The notes below the pieces were generated by a model. The model searched no databases. It saw only the letters and a list, made by a program, of their open reading frames with translations, and was not told where the DNA came from. 33,022 nucleotides of DNA from Pseudomonadota bacterium (GTDB lineage: Bacteria > Pseudomonadota > Gammaproteobacteria > Steroidobacterales > Woeseiaceae), in NCBI GenBank assembly GCA_027621915.1, contig JAQCAD010000036.1:1-33022 (forward strand), written 5' to 3'. Below, piece after piece: positions 4,164 to 12,413 of the stretch. The translations under genes and the position numbers were made by a program. Within the stretch, counting starts at the first letter, position 1; the number at the start of each line of letters is the position of its first letter.

Positions 4164-4949
4164 TTAACAGAGTCGTCCGTAGAACGTCATGCGCGCGGAT
4201 TCCGAAAGAGATATTCCAGGCCTGGAATTGTAGGCAAGTACCACCAGCATTCGCGTGCGAGCGCCCTCTACAGGCGTAACACGGTGCATCGAATTTCTCC
4301 CACGAAACAACACGAGCGCGCCGTCATCCATTGCCAGGGAACGAGTCTGAATCTCGCCGTCGAGGACTTGTCCGGAAAGCTCAAAATTCATCTCCCCGCT
4401 GTCGGCGTCGCGCACGTCTTTGACGTACTCAAATACTCCGCCGCCGTCCGGTTTCTGAATCATCAGGGTGATAGCAAAGGAAGAGTTGTCGAAGTGCCAG
4501 CCGAGCTCCTGTCCGTCACCCGCATAATGAAGATTGATCGAAGATAACGGGTCGGCGTATTCGAAGAGCTCCCTTTCACCCAGGACAGCGCACAGGAATT
4601 CACGAAACTCGGGCGCATCATAAAGTGCGCGTAATGCCGAATCGGCAGGGATCTGATCGGTCGTAATACAACCCTTGGAAGAATTGATTTCCCGGTTTCG
4701 CGTATGGTCAACCGGAAAATCCGGATCAGGTGGCGTCAGGTAAATATTGTGTCTGCTGGCGGTGTAGTACGCGAGATGCCGGTTCTCATCGCCTTCTTTT
4801 TGAACATCAGCAATCGCCGCCGGCCGCAAAAATCCATGCAAGACAAGAACGCCGTCTTCATTAAGCGTGCGCTGACACCTGGACCGAAATTCGACACTGG
4901 CCAGTGGGTATTGCGAGGTATCGACAATTGTTTCGAGCAATTTACTCAT
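4164..4949 (-). CDS. 2-oxoglutarate/Fe(II)-dependent oxygenase, substrate unknown
   Basis: 261 residues with a double-stranded beta-helix oxygenase pattern. The iron triad is probably His152 and Asp154 (WHFDNSSF) with His222 (MHRVTPV). Arg233, eleven residues after the distal His, is a fit for the 2-oxoglutarate carboxylate. Between them are DGALVLFRGR and the strand RMLVVLAYN, both typical of the fold. No signal peptide is seen, so it should be cytoplasmic. The ATG at 4949 follows an AAAGGGA ribosome site closely. It lies 62 bases downstream of queF on the same strand and may share its transcript. Such enzymes hydroxylate or halogenate small molecules or peptides; nothing here decides which. 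Confidence 0.7.
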   Translation of the reverse strand: MSKLLETIVDTSQYPLASVEFRSRCQRTLNEDGVLVLHGFLRPAAIADVQKEGDENRHLAYYTASRHNIYLTPPDPDFPVDHTRNREINSSKGCITTDQIPADSALRALYDAPEFREFLCAVLGERELFEYADPLSSINLHYAGDGQELGWHFDNSSFAITLMIQKPDGGGVFEYVKDVRDADSGEMNFELSGQVLDGEIQTRSLAMDDGALVLFRGRNSMHRVTPVEGARTRMLVVLAYNSRPGISLSESARMTFYGRLC

Positions 4950-5011: not shown

Positions 5012-5824
5012 TTACTGTCGCCACAAGCGCGAATTCTCCGGGGCTTGATCAGTGTCGGTTCGAAACGGATTGATGTCGAGCCCGCCACGCCGGTTATAGC
5101 GCGCATAGACCGTCAAAGTGTCCGGTGCGCAACGATTCTTGATGTCTACAAAGATCCGCTCCACACAGGCCTCATGAAAATCATTGTGTTGTCGATACGA
5201 CACGATGTATCGCAGAAGAGACGAGCGATCAATTTTCGGGCCGCAGTAGCGAACGAGCAAACTGCCCATATCCGGTTGGCTGGTCACCGGACAATTGCTG
5301 CGCAGCAGGTGCGAGTGCAGTGCTTCACTGACTATTTCCCCCGATTCACACCGCAACAACGGGGCATCGACTTCATCGGGAAGAACCGCCATATCCAGGT
5401 CATCGATACACGCACCGGCGAAATTCGATATTGGGCTGACAGATGCGTCTGCCGTCGTCACGATATCGACTGCGACATCCGCGCCAGCCGTTCGCGACAG
5501 ATCGGCAGTCATCAGCGTGGCGACAGCATCCGCGGACACATAACGAGTCATGGCAAATGAATTCAGATAAAGCTTCAGGGACTTCGACTCAATGACGTTT
5601 GGTGAGGTCGCATCGACTATCAAAGTGGCCGTTGCGATGACAGGTTTGCCGTCGCTGTTCATCCAGGTGAGTTCCCATGCATTCCAGACGTCGGCCCCGG
5701 TGAACGGCAATTCCGTGCCGAGTCCAAGAATATCGCGGGCAACTGCCCGGGGCACCGCAAACAGCACGCCCGGGGCATATTCGTCAGAATATTCAGTAGG
5801 TTGTCCAAGGGGAGATTCACGCAT
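5012..5824 (-). CDS. queF: NADPH-dependent 7-cyano-7-deazaguanine reductase (QueF, long form)
   Basis: Reduces preQ0 to preQ1 in queuosine tRNA-modification synthesis, in the cytoplasm. At 270 residues it is the two-module form seen in E. coli. The N-terminal module carries the QueF motif ESKSLKLYLNSF at 79-90. The C-terminal module carries the nucleophile Cys178 in RSNCPVTSQPDMGS, the proton-relay Asp185, and His217-Glu218 (FHEACVE) for base recognition. All active-site residues are present. The gene is divergent from the cyanophycin operon, separated by only 60 bases, and is followed by the oxygenase gene. No preQ1 riboswitch is evident in the short leader. Confidence 0.95.
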   Translation of the reverse strand: MRESPLGQPTEYSDEYAPGVLFAVPRAVARDILGLGTELPFTGADVWNAWELTWMNSDGKPVIATATLIVDATSPNVIESKSLKLYLNSFAMTRYVSADAVATLMTADLSRTAGADVAVDIVTTADASVSPISNFAGACIDDLDMAVLPDEVDAPLLRCESGEIVSEALHSHLLRSNCPVTSQPDMGSLLVRYCGPKIDRSSLLRYIVSYRQHNDFHEACVERIFVDIKNRCAPDTLTVYARYNRRGGLDINPFRTDTDQAPENSRLWRQ

Positions 5825-5884: not shown

Positions 5885-7069
5885 TTGGCCGGTTCCTTCC
5901 CCTTGTTAAAACTACTTTCCAACGCCAGGGTCTTCGCCCCGGAAGACCTCGGAATCTGCCATGTGCTGGTCGGCGGCGGCAGGATTCTTGGTGTCAGCGG
6001 CAAAAAGAACGAGTTGTCGGCCGCCGGCGCGACCGAGTCAGATCTGGCAGGGCGTCGATTAATCCCGGGATTCATTGACGGGCATGCACATGTAACAGGA
6101 GGAGGCGGCGAAGCAGGCTTCAGCAGCCGCGTGCCACCGGTGCCGCTTGGCCATTTTACGACGGCTGGCGTCACGGGCGTTGTCGGCGTGCTTGGTACAG
6201 ATGACACGACTCGTGACACTCGTTCTTTGCTGGCGCAAACTCGCGCACTGCGTGAAGAGGGCCTTGGCGCCTGGTGCCACACGGGTGGATATCACGTCCC
6301 GCCGGTGACGCTGACCGGAAGTGTTCGCGACGACATCGTCTTTCTCGACCCCGTCATCGGCGTTGGTGAACTGGCGATAAGTGATCATAGATCGAGCCAG
6401 CCGACGCTGAACGAATTATTGCGTATCGCCAGCGACGCCCATGTGGCCGGCATGATTTCGGGCAAGGCCGGAATTCTTCATCTTCACCTGGGCGATGGTG
6501 AGCGAGGTGCCGATCTGATCCGCCGTGCGCTGGCCAAAAGCGAATTGCCGGCGAGAGTATTCAACCCGACCCATATCAATCGCCGAAAAGCACTGTTCGA
6601 GGAAGCGATCGAACTCGCGCATCGCGGTTGTACCGTTGACATCACCGCGTTTCCTGTTGCCGATGACGAGGATGCCTGGTCGGCCGATGTCGCGTTGGAG
6701 AAATATCTCGACACCGGTGCGCCGGCGAATCGAATCACAGTCAGTTCGGATGGAGGCGGTTGTCTGCCGGTGTTCAACGAACAGGGCGAAATGTTGTCGA
6801 TGGATATCGGTCGACCATCGAGCCTCATCGAAACGTTGCGTAGCCTGCTAAATAGTGGTCGGGCACCTGAACAAATATTGCCCGCATTTACGAGCAACGT
6901 GGCTGATATTTTGCGTCTTGGTGATCGTGGTCGAATACGCCCTGGCGCCGTTGCCGACATGATCGTGCTCGATGTTGACCACCGCATCAGCGATGTTATG
7001 GTCTCCGGCATCTGGCACGTCCAGAACGGCAAGCAGAAAATCTTCGGCCAGTTCGAATCACCAAACTAA
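5885..7069 (+). CDS. iadA: Isoaspartyl dipeptidase (last step of cyanophycin breakdown), unusual metal-bridging residue
   Basis: An amidohydrolase (peptidase M38) that splits beta-aspartyl dipeptides. Next to cyanophycinase it would cut beta-Asp-Arg to Asp and Arg. The 394 residues align from end to end with my recollection of E. coli IadA: APEDLGIC near the N terminus, GGGGEAG, GTDDTTRD, AISDHRS and VSSDGGG. Metal ligands seen are His67 and His69 (DGHAH), His201 (HLGD), His230 (PTHIN) and Asp289. At position 162, where the E. coli enzyme has the carboxylated Lys that bridges the two zincs, this protein has Glu (VGELAISDH). No ATG or GTG is available: an in-frame TAG lies at 5861, and the first start codons are TTG at 5885 and TTG at 5903. 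The E. coli alignment favours one of these. First gene of iadA-cphB-cphA-cphA-like, 26 bases before cphB. Confidence 0.92.
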   Translation: MAGSFPLLKLLSNARVFAPEDLGICHVLVGGGRILGVSGKKNELSAAGATESDLAGRRLIPGFIDGHAHVTGGGGEAGFSSRVPPVPLGHFTTAGVTGVVGVLGTDDTTRDTRSLLAQTRALREEGLGAWCHTGGYHVPPVTLTGSVRDDIVFLDPVIGVGELAISDHRSSQPTLNELLRIASDAHVAGMISGKAGILHLHLGDGERGADLIRRALAKSELPARVFNPTHINRRKALFEEAIELAHRGCTVDITAFPVADDEDAWSADVALEKYLDTGAPANRITVSSDGGGCLPVFNEQGEMLSMDIGRPSSLIETLRSLLNSGRAPEQILPAFTSNVADILRLGDRGRIRPGAVADMIVLDVDHRISDVMVSGIWHVQNGKQKIFGQFESPN

Positions 7070-7095: not shown

Positions 7096-7917
7096 ATGAG
7101 CCCGTCCAATCATTCCGACAACGCCAGCCGTGGCTATATCATTCCCATCGGCGGGGCCGAACAAAAACTGTACAACACCGAAATACTGGATCGTTTCATC
7201 GAGATATGCGGTGGTAAGTCGTCGCGCATATCAATTATCCCGACCGCATCCGAGCTTGAGGACACGGGCCGGAATTATGAAAAACTATTTCGGCAGATTG
7301 GGGTGCAGCACGCGAAAGTACTCAACATACTGACGCGCGAAGATTGCAAAAAAAGTGAGTTTACCGACTACCTGGAGAAGTCTGACGGCGTGTTCATGAC
7401 CGGCGGCAATCAGCTCCGCCTGTCAACAACACTCGGCGGCACACCGGTCGCGCAATTGATTCGCCGACGCAATGCGGACGGTATGCATGTAGCAGGCACC
7501 TCGGCGGGTGCCGCATTCATGCCGGAGCACATGATTGCCGGCGGGCTCGAGGGCAGCACGCCTAGTCCGGACATGGTGACGATGGCTCCGGGCCTTGGCC
7601 TGACAAATAATTTCATCATTGACCAGCACTTCCGCGAGCGTGACCGTCTGGGGCGCTTGCTGACCGCACTGGCCTACAACCCGTTTGCTGTGGGCATCGG
7701 CCTTGACGAGGACACAGCGGCCTTTATTCGCCCGGGGGACACGCTCGAAGTGGTCGGCAGCGGCGGCCTGACGATTATTGACCCGACCAATCTGAGTTAT
7801 TCTTCGATGGACCGTGCACGCCGCGGCGAGCCGGTCAGCCTGATCGATGTAAAGCTTCATGTACTGATTTCAGGCGGTCGTTTTGAAATCAAGTCCAGAA
7901 AGGCGTTTGCAGAATAA
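7096..7917 (+). CDS. cphB: Cyanophycinase
   Basis: A serine exopeptidase of family S51 that releases beta-Asp-Arg dipeptides from cyanophycin in the cytoplasm. The protein has 273 residues, the usual length. The nucleophile is Ser136 in the elbow GTSAGAAFM. His178 (DQHFRERDR) and Glu205 (LDEDTAA) follow at 42 and 27 residues, the same spacings as the published Synechocystis triad Ser132-His174-Glu201. FMTGGNQLRL at 100-109 is also a family block. The ATG at 7096 has a weak AGAAG upstream. It sits between iadA and cphA with gaps of 26 and 15 bases, so polymer synthesis and breakdown are probably co-transcribed. Confidence 0.95.
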   Translation: MSPSNHSDNASRGYIIPIGGAEQKLYNTEILDRFIEICGGKSSRISIIPTASELEDTGRNYEKLFRQIGVQHAKVLNILTREDCKKSEFTDYLEKSDGVFMTGGNQLRLSTTLGGTPVAQLIRRRNADGMHVAGTSAGAAFMPEHMIAGGLEGSTPSPDMVTMAPGLGLTNNFIIDQHFRERDRLGRLLTALAYNPFAVGIGLDEDTAAFIRPGDTLEVVGSGGLTIIDPTNLSYSSMDRARRGEPVSLIDVKLHVLISGGRFEIKSRKAFAE

Positions 7918-7932: not shown

Positions 7933-10719
7933 ATGAAAATAATCAGCACTAACGTCTACGTTGGCCCAAATGTTTACGCACATTTTCCTGTTATCCGGCA
8001 CGTGCTGGATCTCGAAGAACTTGAAGAGTGGCCAACCGGCCGGCTTGGCAAGGCGTTTGTTGAGGCGTTGCTGGCGGTCCTGCCCGGGCTGCACGAGCAC
8101 GGCTGTTCTTATAGTGAACCGGGTGGTTTCGTACGACGCCTTGTCGAAGAGGAAGGAACGTGGCTCGGCCATGTCATGGAGCACGTTGCCATAGAACTGC
8201 AGAACGTTGCGGGTTCCGCCGTTACGTTCGGACGTACCCGGTCGGTTGATGGTGAGAAGGGTATTTACACTATGGTGTTTCAGTATCTCGACATTGAAGT
8301 AGGTCAGGAAGCAAGTCGGCTTGCGCTCGACCTGATTCGAAGTCTTTTGCCCGACGAGTTGAAGACCCGGGGCATGCCGGCAGTAGGTTGGGATTTTGCT
8401 GAAGCACGAGATGGGTTTATTCGCTACGCGCAGGCGAAAGCGTTCGGACCCAGTACCGCTTCGCTCGTCAAAGCCGCTGAGGAGCGCAATATTCCGTGGA
8501 TTCGTCTTAATCGACAAAGTCTCGTGCAATTTGGCCATGGTCGTTATCAGCAACGCATCCAGGCAACGACGACCAGCAGAACCGGCAACATCAGCGTGGA
8601 ACTTGCCGGCGACAAGGAAGAGACAAACAACATCCTGCGTGATCTGGGCCTGCCGGTTCCCAAGCAGCGGATGGTTAAGAACTCCAGTGATGCCAAACGT
8701 GCCGCAGAACGCATCGGATATCCGGTCGTACTCAAACCACTCGCGGGCAACCATGGTCGCGGCGTTTCGATCAATCTGAAAACGCCGGAAGAGATAGAAG
8801 TGGCTTTCGAAAAGGCGCGAGAGCATGGTCGAAATGTCATCGTTGAAAGTTTCATCGAAGGTTACGACCACAGGCTCCTGGTCGTTAACGGCAAGCTGGT
8901 CGCCGCTGCAAAACGAATGCCGGGTCACGTTGTCGGTGATGGGAAACTTACGATTGCTGAGTTGGTAAACACGGTCAATTCAGATCCGCGGCGTGGCGTT
9001 GGTCACGAAAAAGTTCTGACGCGACTTGAACTGGACCACCAGGCAGATCGACTACTGGCGAAGCTGGGATACGACCATTCCTCTGTTCCGACGGATGGTG
9101 AGGTCGTGTTCCTGCGATCAACGGCGAATCTATCGACAGGTGGGACCGCGATCGATGTGACAGATGTTATTCATCCGGATAATCGCGACATGGCTGAGCG
9201 CACGATCAAGGCGATCGGTCTCGATATCGGGGGCGTCGATTTTCTGACGAATGATATTACGGAGTCGTATCGGGAGGCCGGCGGTGGTATCTGCGAAGTT
9301 AATGCGGGGCCTGGATTTCGCATGCATGTAGCGCCAAGTGAGGGCACACCGCGGGACGTAGCAGGGCCGGTGCTGGATATGTTGTTTCCGCCAGATACAC
9401 CGAGTCGCATTCCAATTGCTGCAATAACCGGAACGAACGGCAAGACGACAACGTCACGCATGCTTGCACATATTCTCAAGTTGTCAGGAAAGACGGTTGG
9501 CCTGACGTCGACCGACGGCGTCTACATCGATGGTCGACTTAGCGTTCCGGGCGACATGACCGGCCCGGTATCCGCGAATATGATTTTGCGTGACCCGTCC
9601 GTCGATGCGGCAGTTCTTGAGACTGCTCGCGGCGGGCTGGTCCGTGGCGGCATGGGTTACCAGAACTGCAATGTTGCCGCCTGCCTGAATGTATCGGCCG
9701 ATCATCTTGGGCTGAAAGGCATCAATACACTCGCCCAGTTGGCGGAGATCAAGCGCGTGCCCATCGAGGTGGCGACAGATGCGGCGGTTCTCAACGCAGA
9801 TGACGTGCACTGCCTGCAGATGGCGGATTACACAGATGCGAAAACGCTCTGTTACGTGACGATGAATCGTGGCCACCCTTTGGTGAGACAACACATACAT
9901 GCGGGTGGCATGGCGTTTGTGCTCGAAGAAGGCATGAACGGCCAGATGATTACGATTTACGACAACGAAGGTAATACCCAGCTTCTCTGGACGCACCTGA
10001 TTCCAGCGACGATCGAAGGTCGTGCCATGCACAACGTGCAAAATGCAATGTTCGCTGCAGCGCTTGCCTACAACATGGGCGTTAGTCTTGAGGATATCCG
10101 GCACGGGTTGCGTACATTTGATTCGACGTTTTTCCAGGCACCGGGTCGAACCAATATATATGACGAGTATCCGTTCAAGGTTATTCTTGATTATGCACAT
10201 AACCCTGCCGCCGTCCGCGCCATGTCACATCTCGTGGATCGATTCGAACCGCTTGGTAAACGCATTGTTGTTCTTGCCGCACCGGGCGACCGCCGGGATG
10301 AAGACATTCGAGAGATCGCGAATATCGCATCCAGCCATTTCGATTACTTCATTTGCCGCTGCGACGACAATCGTCGTGGTCGAGGGCAAGATGAAGTTGC
10401 TGTGATGCTGAAAGACAAGCTGCTCGAATGCGGTATCGACTCTGATCGCATTGAGGTAATACCTGATGAGCAGGAAGCTATTACCAGATCTTTGAGCATG
10501 GCCGCGAGTGGTGATCTCCTGCTCGTGCTGGCGGACAACATTAAACGAAGCTGGAAACAGATCATTTACTTCAACTCGAAGGGCAAGCGCAACGACAGTG
10601 CCGGTAAAACGAAAGTGACGATCGATCTGTCGGACAGCGAAGGGTTCACTTTTGACGATAACGTGGAAATTATCAGCGACGAGCGCGGAGTTAGAATCGC
10701 CAGAGAAGAGGCCGACTAG
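7933..10719 (+). CDS. cphA: Cyanophycin synthetase
   Basis: Makes the multi-L-arginyl-poly-L-aspartate storage polymer, adding Asp then Arg with ATP. The 928 residues show three parts. The N-terminal domain (about 1-160) contains GHVMEHVAIELQ (His80, Glu83, His84), a block reported in some CphA proteins as a hydrolytic, primer-making site. The ATP-grasp domain (about 220-485) has VVLKPLAGNHGRGVS (Lys268), the VESFIEGYDHR strand, and the metal-binding end EVNAGPGFRMH; this module adds Asp. The Mur-ligase-like domain (about 490-928) has the P-loop GTNGKTTT at 500-507, ETARGG, NVSADHLG, an IKRVP Lys and LDYAHNP; this module adds Arg. The ATG at 7933 is preceded by AGAGGC. All motifs look intact, so the enzyme should be active. 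Confidence 0.96.
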   Translation: MKIISTNVYVGPNVYAHFPVIRHVLDLEELEEWPTGRLGKAFVEALLAVLPGLHEHGCSYSEPGGFVRRLVEEEGTWLGHVMEHVAIELQNVAGSAVTFGRTRSVDGEKGIYTMVFQYLDIEVGQEASRLALDLIRSLLPDELKTRGMPAVGWDFAEARDGFIRYAQAKAFGPSTASLVKAAEERNIPWIRLNRQSLVQFGHGRYQQRIQATTTSRTGNISVELAGDKEETNNILRDLGLPVPKQRMVKNSSDAKRAAERIGYPVVLKPLAGNHGRGVSINLKTPEEIEVAFEKAREHGRNVIVESFIEGYDHRLLVVNGKLVAAAKRMPGHVVGDGKLTIAELVNTVNSDPRRGVGHEKVLTRLELDHQADRLLAKLGYDHSSVPTDGEVVFLRSTANLSTGGTAIDVTDVIHPDNRDMAERTIKAIGLDIGGVDFLTNDITESYREAGGGICEVNAGPGFRMHVAPSEGTPRDVAGPVLDMLFPPDTPSRIPIAAITGTNGKTTTSRMLAHILKLSGKTVGLTSTDGVYIDGRLSVPGDMTGPVSANMILRDPSVDAAVLETARGGLVRGGMGYQNCNVAACLNVSADHLGLKGINTLAQLAEIKRVPIEVATDAAVLNADDVHCLQMADYTDAKTLCYVTMNRGHPLVRQHIHAGGMAFVLEEGMNGQMITIYDNEGNTQLLWTHLIPATIEGRAMHNVQNAMFAAALAYNMGVSLEDIRHGLRTFDSTFFQAPGRTNIYDEYPFKVILDYAHNPAAVRAMSHLVDRFEPLGKRIVVLAAPGDRRDEDIREIANIASSHFDYFICRCDDNRRGRGQDEVAVMLKDKLLECGIDSDRIEVIPDEQEAITRSLSMAASGDLLLVLADNIKRSWKQIIYFNSKGKRNDSAGKTKVTIDLSDSEGFTFDDNVEIISDERGVRIAREEAD

Positions 10720-10736: not shown

Positions 10737-12413
10737 ATGGAATTTCTTGATGCAAGGCGTTTAACGGGCCCGAATATTCTTTGGAACAGGCCCAGCGCCA
10801 TGCTGGATATCGCATGTACGCCGGAAGAAGCAGACGACCTGATTCCATTTTGCGAAGAGCATATTCAACGCATGCTTGACGCTGTCGGCTGGGGTGGTGA
10901 ATCGGTCCGCCACCTGCGTGTTGTCGGCGGTTTGACGATCGCTTTCTCGGCCCCGATCGATGCGCTTTACGCGGCCACGGAAATTGTCGAATGGGTCTGG
11001 GCCTGCTGCGAAGCAGAATTTTGTGGCGCTCAAGTACCGGATTTTAATAGAAAAAAAACAGAAATCAGGATTGCCATAGCTGAAGAAGTTAACCCGCCTT
11101 TGCTCACGATGCAGGTCGCTGCGCTCAAACATGGCGTATCTTTTCTCTGGGACGATGACGAAGTTTCGGTCGGTCACGGAAGTCATTCCCAGACGTGGCC
11201 TTTTCGTGAGTTGCCGAACCCCGAGGCGCTGGATTGGTCGCGCTATCGCGATGTTCCGGTGGGCATCGTCACTGGCACCAATGGTAAGACGACGACCGTT
11301 AGAATCGCGAAACACCTTTTGCAGTCGGCCGGTCGAATTGTCGGATTGAGTTGCACTGACTGGGTATCAGTTAACGACGAGATCATCGATCGGGATGATT
11401 GGTCGGGTCCGGGCGGTGCCAGGCTCGTATTGCGCCAGGATCGTATTGACACCGCGATACTCGAGACAGCACGTGGAGGATTGTTACGACGTGGCCTCGG
11501 GGTTGAACGCGCCCAAGTCGCGTTAATTACCAATGTTTCAGAAGATCACCTTGGCGACTTCGGTTCCCGGAATGTCGACGAATTGCTGAACATCAAATGG
11601 GTCATCAGCCGCGCCGTGGAAGACACCGGCAGCCTGATTCTCAATGCAGATGACAAACTGTTAGTCGCGAAGTCGGAAGAATTCGACGGTTGCATCGCCT
11701 GGTTCAGCCTCAACGATTCAAATCCTGTCATCATTGAGCATGCAAAGCGCAATGGAATTGCATTCGTTTATTCGAAGGGAGACCTCGTTCGAATCGAAGG
11801 GAACGACAGACAGACAATCTGCCAGGCGAAAGATATTCCGATCACTTTGAACGCTGCCGCGGAACACAATATTGCCAATGCGCTGGGTGCTGCTGCGCTG
11901 ACTGAGAAACTCGGCTTATCGATAGAGCAGATTGCCGGCGGCTTGAAAACCATGTCGCAGGATTCCAATCCTGGTCGGAGTAACCTGTTCGAGATCGATG
12001 GTTTCAAAGTGCTGGTGGATTTCGCCCACAATCCGGAAGCCATGCAGGCGTTGTTCGCGGTGGCAAGTGCTATTCCTGCGAGTCGACGCGTCCTTTGTTT
12101 CGCCCAGGCGGGCGATCGTACGGACTCGCAAATTCGAGAATTCGCCAGGAGCGCGTGGGCGATCGGTCTCGACATGGTGAACATCGCGGAACTCGAGGCC
12201 TATCGGCGCGGGCGAGCGGAAGGCGAGGTGTTCCGAATTTTACGCGATGAGCTGTTGAAATCCGGCGCGCGCAGCGATCAGATACAGTATTTCCGCGAAG
12301 AAAACGAATCGTTCGATGCGGCGCTCGAGTGGGCAAAGGAGGGCGACCTGGTGGTTATCCTCGATCTGGGTCGAAATTCGAACACCCAGGGGAAAATTAC
12401 TGCCCGATTATAG
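10737..12413 (+). CDS. Short CphA-like Mur ligase lacking the ATP-grasp domain
   Basis: 558 residues related to CphA but built differently. Residues 1-160 begin ARRLTGPNILW, like the LxGPNxW start of cyanobacterial CphA. The N-domain HxxEH motif is not seen, and there is no ATP-grasp module at all. From about residue 173 a complete Mur-ligase part follows: P-loop GTNGKTTT at 180-187, ETARGG at 243-248, NVSEDHLG with His271, Lys287 in NIKWV, and VDFAHNPEAM. All catalytic motifs are kept, so it should activate a carboxylate with ATP and join an amine to it. Seventeen bases after cphA, it is the last gene of the operon. It might, like cyanobacterial CphA2, polymerise beta-Asp-Arg dipeptides or modify the polymer. 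That is inference; the reaction is not known from sequence. Confidence 0.85.
   Translation: MEFLDARRLTGPNILWNRPSAMLDIACTPEEADDLIPFCEEHIQRMLDAVGWGGESVRHLRVVGGLTIAFSAPIDALYAATEIVEWVWACCEAEFCGAQVPDFNRKKTEIRIAIAEEVNPPLLTMQVAALKHGVSFLWDDDEVSVGHGSHSQTWPFRELPNPEALDWSRYRDVPVGIVTGTNGKTTTVRIAKHLLQSAGRIVGLSCTDWVSVNDEIIDRDDWSGPGGARLVLRQDRIDTAILETARGGLLRRGLGVERAQVALITNVSEDHLGDFGSRNVDELLNIKWVISRAVEDTGSLILNADDKLLVAKSEEFDGCIAWFSLNDSNPVIIEHAKRNGIAFVYSKGDLVRIEGNDRQTICQAKDIPITLNAAAEHNIANALGAAALTEKLGLSIEQIAGGLKTMSQDSNPGRSNLFEIDGFKVLVDFAHNPEAMQALFAVASAIPASRRVLCFAQAGDRTDSQIREFARSAWAIGLDMVNIAELEAYRRGRAEGEVFRILRDELLKSGARSDQIQYFREENESFDAALEWAKEGDLVVILDLGRNSNTQGKITARL

Follow-up and report, generated by a model that had tools for sequence, protein, structure and literature searches.

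CphA1, the cyanophycin synthetase, has two ligase sites, one in an ATP-grasp (G) domain that adds Asp to the backbone and one in a Mur-ligase (M) domain that adds Arg to the side chain, and cyanophycin is described as the product of this single enzyme (available sections of PMC9427784). What, then, is the role of a second CphA-like gene, placed next to cphA, whose product has an M domain and no ATP-grasp domain? The question is raised by a contig of 33,022 nucleotides from a bacterium of the Woeseiaceae (Gammaproteobacteria; GCA_027621915.1, JAQCAD010000036.1), hereafter the window, i.e., the whole stretch of DNA analysed. Four genes follow one another on its forward strand in the order iadA, cyanophycinase, cphA and, last, the gene under study, with gaps of 26, 15 and 17 bases (Table 1); the original prediction, which spoke of a CphA paralogue in a cyanophycin operon, is borne out by this cluster. 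The product of the last gene is referred to below as the N-M protein, and members of its family as companions of the adjoining CphA. The cluster is adjoined by a gene for QueF, a reductase of the queuosine pathway, and a relative of QueF was found near the cluster in at least five of the 30 stretches compared, the window counted. Another gene of the window codes for an Fe(II)/2-oxoglutarate enzyme, related to the amino acid halogenases HalD (by Pfam) and, far under the cut-off, BesD (by NCBIfam).

Table 1. Position of the genes and domains discussed, in the window or, where a locus is named, within that locus
Feature	Position	Strand	Basis or remarks
Fe(II)/2-oxoglutarate enzyme	4164-4949	-	Pfam
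QueF	5012-5824	-	
Isoaspartyl dipeptidase (IadA)	5885..7069	+	TIGR01975, 387.9 bits, cut-off 331.25
Cyanophycinase	7096..7917	+	TIGR02069, 257.7 bits, cut-off 126.6
cphA (CphA1, 928 aa)	7933..10719	+	N, G and M all there; Pfam and NCBIfam
N-M gene (558 aa, ATG start)	10737..12413	+	CphA N domain, ATP-grasp (G) stub, Mur-ligase (M) domain
N domain, residues ~1-118, without HxxEH zinc motif	10737..11090	+	Fold matches and motif check
Remnant of G (ATP-grasp), start of the domain only, residues ~106-153	11052..11195	+	hhalign, family profile
Mur-ligase (M) domain with complete catalytic positions, residues 173-558	11253..12413	+	Pfam and alignment
Actinobacterial N-M gene	L075:7886-9571	-	Opposite strand to adjoining cphA
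Actinobacterial N-M gene	L082:8000-9673	-	Opposite strand to adjoining cphA
Actinobacterial N-M gene	L089:8230-9909	-	Opposite strand to adjoining cphA
Legionella adelaidensis N-M protein (630 aa open frame)	L147:5884-7773 (plasmid NZ_LR134428.1)		N domain with HxxEH, then M
Duganella sp. sic0402 CphA-like frame (701 aa), beside cphA	L103:7220-9322	-	ATP-grasp part eroded

Only two Pfam families are matched by the N-M protein, Mur_ligase_M (PF08245; residues 178-388, E = 1.7e-23, 84.1 bits against a gathering score of 24) and Mur_ligase_C (PF02875; residues 413-541, E = 2.9e-13, 51.2 bits against a gathering score of 28.4). No ATP-grasp family was found in it at E-values of up to 10, whereas the CphA of the window matches several. 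The NCBIfam model for CphA (TIGR02068) covers residues 171-542 only, with 367.5 bits (cut-off 850), and the MurE model (TIGR01085) scores 98.9 bits (cut-off 257.3). A complete Mur-ligase half had been proposed, and every motif then named was found in its place: GTNGKTTT at residues 180-187, ETARGG at 243, NVSEDHLG at 266, K287 and DFAHN at 428. The absence of ATP-grasp, also part of the original prediction, holds as well, since neither the Pfam search nor Foldseek recognised such a fold in residues 1-170.

The CphA-like N-terminal start that had been proposed was harder to recover. In a BLASTP comparison with the CphA of the window, significant alignment starts only at residue 173; PF18921 is not matched (Pfam, E-values of up to 10), and an early profile comparison with a narrow set of 18 CphA sequences gave a probability of 3.3% (E = 0.0044). 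In a later profile comparison (hhalign) of 48 family members with 91 more diverse CphA-type sequences, however, residues 1-153 aligned with the N domain of CphA and, beyond it, with the opening helix and strand of G, at a probability of 96% (E = 4.5e-9); the score, 60.8, compares with a maximum of 24.8 after shuffling, and none of 60 column-shuffled controls came as high. For the G part alone (residues 106-153), the probability was 91.3% (E = 9.5e-7) and the score 34.1, against a shuffled maximum of 17.3 and again no control as high out of 60. This relic of G is visible in the family profile only: in single companion sequences it is mostly not above chance (best 6.4 bits, the best of 560 shuffled sequences reaching 5.7), and the protein of the window by itself scores -2.9. 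Thus, profile and fold (see below) agree on a CphA-like start, whereas the single-sequence tests fail. Because the family profile holds both an N domain and a relic of G, we read the gene as a probable copy of CphA from which the ATP-grasp core (about CphA residues 212-490) was deleted, with a short edge left behind. The HxxEH zinc peptidase motif, found in the N domain of the window CphA together with a Cys 21 residues upstream, was seen in none of 64 companion N domain entries, a few of which are copies of one gene.

The original prediction had also called for a structural comparison with CphA and CphA2. A model of the whole protein, predicted from 59 rows in which the N-terminal part was covered by the family and by actinobacterial N-M members and not by CphA, had a mean pLDDT of 92.4 and a pTM of 0.92. 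The nine best PDB matches of this model in Foldseek were CphA1 chains (E down to 4.9e-41), and with VIA-align 2 it superposed on CphA1 from end to end, with G missing: four CphA1 chains of Synechocystis could be aligned with 545-549 of the 558 residues (Z 35.9-38.3, rmsd 3.7-5.8), and MurE came first among the matches other than cyanophycin synthetases (Z 27.6). In view of this near full-length superposition, N and M are predicted to hold about the same arrangement as in CphA1. The N-terminal 172 residues were also modelled alone, from five family sequences (pLDDT 90.1, pTM 0.70). The 14 Foldseek matches of this model with E < 0.001 were all to CphA1 or CphA2, fitted over the N domain of cyanophycin synthetase and a short stub, and among its best 50 matches no ATP-grasp entry besides cyanophycin synthetase was noticed. 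Residues 1-118 fit the N domain of CphA2 to within 2.6-3.1 Angstrom over 111-112 residues (Z 10.4-10.9). Longer fits to CphA1 had an rmsd of 10.5-12.8, with Foldseek TM-scores by query of 0.36-0.51, and values this large leave the place of the G relic in the fold unfixed; we read them as reflecting an N domain and a stub that are probably oriented differently when M is absent from the model.

How often such a gene follows cphA, a survey likewise proposed at the outset, was determined at three levels. Within the order of the window, at least 64 of 196 genomes (its own included) have a match to the family, a few of them partial, and two more have a fragment; CphA is among the matches listed in 64 of these 66, and in the two exceptions (G181 and G057) the family match lies 5 and 746 bases from the start of the contig. 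Among the matches listed for the 196 genomes, CphA never occurred where the family was missing. The tallies were drawn up by hand and include ten more distant members, in one family; seven of the ten were fetched and confirmed as N-M proteins, and the other three were assigned from the range of the match and the open frame. Among 369 genomes of the class, 18 had a match, eight with both proteins and 10 with CphA-type matches only; the figures for 398 genomes of the phylum were 29, five and 24, a few genomes being shared by the two samples. In 61 of 61 loci, chosen for matching the family, the next gene upstream is a cphA in the same orientation, at a distance of about 2-85 bases as counted from the start of the profile match; three copies of counted loci (L001, L134 and L135) and the loci collected later are left out of this number. 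Carriers include Lysobacter sp. Root916, a Lysobacterales MAG, an Acidobacteria MAG and Plesiocystis pacifica, and the gene also comes after cphA on plasmids of Ruegeria, Shinella and Roseateles (the last an "unverified organism"), whose records annotate it only as "Mur ligase family protein". The family thus extends to Acidobacteria, Myxococcota and Alphaproteobacteria, with a related form in Actinobacteria. The architecture of the gene, its origin and its link to cphA are well supported. At one locus from the genus of the window (L005, genome G163), an intact companion stands next to a cphA whose match is divided between two reading frames; the gene may really be broken there, or the assembly may be at fault.

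Recurring neighbours were sought in 30 stretches, in which frames were picked greedily, so that the counts are lower bounds. Cyanophycinase was present in at least 16 of the 30 and IadA in at least nine. A further cluster, present in at least six, consists of ABC-transporter ATPases (three of six checked), a very broad family, with permease- and HlyD-type genes beside the ATPase at three loci of one family; the cluster termed C2 looks to be mostly antisense frames, and the others were common to small groups only. No recurring further neighbour that would name an amino acid was found in the 30 stretches. One Ruegeria plasmid has saccharopine dehydrogenase-like and aldehyde dehydrogenase genes upstream, a clue that was given no weight because the plasmids of Shinella and Roseateles lack them.

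From the 197 M domains collected, 95 were used for a tree, in which the CphAs that have a companion form one clade (SH-aLRT 100), and the companions form another together with an actinobacterial N-M form (SH-aLRT 99), encoded beside cphA in Nocardioides, Terrabacter and a Micrococcales MAG. In two of the actinobacterial loci (L082 and L089) the open frame runs on into a long C-terminal extension. By informal comparison, branching within the companion clade resembles that within the cphA clade, with some differences, e.g., for Plesiocystis. Just outside the clade of companion-associated CphAs lies an Acidobacteria CphA (L084) whose genome gave no other match. A distant companion (L139), on a long branch, falls beside the family and not inside it; it was omitted from a second tree, of 64 M domains, used for AU tests. 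Two proteins resemble the family in their domain losses. That of Legionella adelaidensis, followed by genes for cyanophycinase and isoaspartyl peptidase, appears on a plasmid on which no other CphA match was found, and is apparently the result of an independent loss of G; that of Duganella sp. sic0402 matches no ATP-grasp family of Pfam at E-values of up to 10 and has a clear relic of the start of G. Membership of these proteins in the family was rejected (p-AU of 0.00025 for Legionella and 5.4e-5 for Duganella; quick tree, one model). Since both fall outside it, the G domain seems, on this tree, to have been lost or eroded at least three times, in the family and in at least two other lineages. 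The original prediction was correct as to architecture; it had missed the relic of G, the wide conservation of the gene and the loss of the zinc motif.

For the active site, 40 of the 49 family sequences listed were aligned, the other 39 being 33-76% identical to the N-M protein of the window. Residues K184, T186, T207, E243, N266, D270, H271, K287, R414, D428, H431 and N432 are identical in all 40. So is R461 in the pocket, invariant likewise in CphA, which we take to be the counterpart of the MurE residue that holds the carboxylate of the incoming amino acid. E485, also present in 40 of 40 and in 89% of a wider set, aligns with the Asp in the DNPR motif of MurE, where the N-M protein reads ELEA; this correspondence comes from one profile alignment, with gaps just after the motif. 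That Asp is D406 in Staphylococcus aureus MurE, where it binds the amino group of lysine together with E460 (PMC3829189, in its available part). Among the CphA1s compared, E or Q occupies the column of E485 in 88% of those without a companion, and most companion-associated ones have R, C or A there. Other positions of the pocket have changed: R788 of CphA, an Arg in 100% and 94% of two CphA groups, is replaced in the companions by P (36%), T (22%) or S (17%), and D791 and D811, near-fixed in CphA near the amino acid, are not kept; G227 (100%), N411 (100%) and Y489 (86%) are specific to the companions. The gene is under purifying selection, dN being well below dS in four family pairs (dN/dS of about 0.13, 0.10, 0.08 and 0.11, the last two less certain with dS > 1.3); three further pairs were saturated at synonymous sites.

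What could such a protein do? We give an even chance to the reading that a copy of CphA1, on losing ATP-grasp by deletion, became a free-standing side-chain ligase of the Mur type, and that its substrate is the cyanophycin chain which the upstream-encoded CphA1 produces. In a published superposition, a cyanophycin analogue comes to lie between two parts of CphA1, the N domain and the M core (PMC9427784, in the sections available); the N-M protein retains both, which points to an ATP-dependent side-chain ligase that would work without growth of the backbone. N domain and M core would hold the chain as in CphA1; the M site would use ATP to activate an Asp side-chain carboxylate, most probably at the last residue, to which it would join an amino acid. 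With the G site gone, the Asp backbone could not be lengthened by the known route. That the amino acid is a basic one is a guess by analogy, based on the carboxylate-holding Arg that is kept and on the Glu (E485) found at the lysine-binding Asp of MurE. As pocket residues conserved in CphA1 are not kept, the added residue, or the acceptor, may differ from that of CphA1. Several points count against this reading. CphA1 makes cyanophycin alone, and the M domain of the window CphA is complete, so that a second ligase is not obviously needed; many genomes with CphA-type matches lack the gene (the 10 of 18 and 24 of 29 given above for class and phylum); the invariant catalytic positions are equally expected if the protein merely repeats the CphA1 reaction; and E485 is not unique to the companions. 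That the gene might stand in for a defective M domain of CphA was discounted, since the M motifs of the window CphA are complete.

Rather than the chain, the enzyme might use small molecules, with free Asp or a short β-aspartyl peptide accepting the amino acid, and so make primers or recycle the dipeptides released by cyanophycinase. Cyanophycinase and IadA are indeed among its neighbours; the minimal primer is (β-Asp-Arg)-Asp, the supply of which can limit CphA1 (PMC9262961, available sections), and a loop that would, by analogy with MurE, face the acceptor is unlike that of CphA1 (G227 in 100%, against Ser in 92%). However, the fold of the N domain, the part of CphA1 that anchors the polymer, is kept, and the primer-making HxxEH motif is present in 25 of 25 CphAs encoded beside an N-M gene, 24 of them with the Cys at a spacing of 21 (19 in the published case), so that these CphAs may make their own primers. 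We consider small-molecule substrates unlikely, while granting them some weight.

An exact repeat of the M reaction of CphA1, with the companion as a helper that attaches Arg to the C-terminal Asp also used by CphA1 and accelerates the alternating cycle, would account for the catalytic set shared with Mur ligases and for the 64 positions of the M domain at which companion and CphA1 have the same conserved residue (>85%). It would leave unaccounted for the release from conservation of R788, D791 and D811 and the fixation of the companion-specific residues G227, N411 and Y489 instead, and we regard it as rather improbable. Still less probable is a partner of CphA1 without catalysis, i.e., a scaffold or a factor for chain length or granules. 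The adjoining genes and the CphA1-like arrangement of N and M would suit a scaffold, which, however, would have no need of a P-loop lysine, a carbamylated-lysine position, a metal ligand and R461 that are invariant in 40 of 40 sequences; moreover, in the tetramer of CphA1 the M core is in contact with three G cores (PMC9427784, available sections), and the N-M protein is without G.

Joining of β-Asp-Arg dipeptides into polymer, as done by CphA2, could be thought of in view of the N domain, which matches that of CphA2. It is the least likely of the reactions that the original prediction had put forward, and we judge it very improbable: this activity is tied to the G domain, through which CphA2 works after loss of the M P-loop and of Mlid (as given in the sections available of PMC9427784), and the N-M protein shows the opposite loss. 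Among the other reactions named in that prediction, capping of the polymer or addition of a residue other than Arg may still apply. A decaying gene or an assembly artefact, suggested by the loss of a domain of about 280 residues, can be set aside with near certainty in the face of open frames of similar length in many genomes of several phyla, dN well below dS and invariant catalytic positions.

Beyond the side-chain ligase itself, we put forward, tentatively and as a doubtful rather than a probable proposal, that a dedicated second ligase of this type, carved out of CphA and retained next to cphA in several phyla, endows cyanophycin with another kind of side chain or with a chain end, the stored polymer being a hitherto undescribed variant, and that the backbone-adding domain has been lost from a CphA copy more than once. 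In line with the original prediction, which knew of no established reaction for this architecture, no published reaction for an N-M form without ATP-grasp was found in the open-access literature, the scope of our search, outside of which most subscription papers fall; nor is the form described in the available parts of PMC9262961, PMC10206079, PMC9427784, PMC8560796, PMC3646047 and PMC11915815. The conservation of the companion suggests that a second enzyme may take part in cyanophycin metabolism in many bacteria, and a change in side chain, chain end or chain length would bear on bacterial nitrogen storage and on modified cyanophycin as a material.

Among known systems, CphA1 (TIGR02068; PDB 7LG5, 7WAE) shares with the N-M protein the fold of the N domain, the M domain with its catalytic residues, the full-length superposition and, as a relic, the start of G; the N-M protein differs in having no ATP-grasp G domain and no HxxEH (present in most, not all, CphA1s) and in its altered pocket. 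Adames et al. are said to have described, in 2013, a second CphA-like gene beside cphA in Ralstonia eutropha H16, coding for CphA' (H16_A0775), which reportedly lacks a large part of the J-loop in its ATP-grasp part and keeps part of G; the N-M protein would differ from it in keeping only about 50 residues of G. With MurE and other Mur ligases it has in common the central and C-terminal ligase domains (Z 23.2-27.6 among the best 50 matches), but it lacks the DNPR motif, has a CphA-type N domain in place of the Mur N-terminal domain and scores far below the MurE cut-off. CphA2 (PDB 7TA5, 8FXH) is, like the N-M protein, derived from CphA, with one active half and the same fold of the N domain; however, CphA2 keeps G and is without the M P-loop and Mlid (PMC9427784, available sections), whereas the N-M protein keeps the P-loop GTNGKT and Mur_ligase_C and is without G. 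The N-M protein represents a familiar enzyme type in a new and widespread form, the mirror image of CphA2, and the two together show that one half of CphA, whichever it is, can persist without the other.
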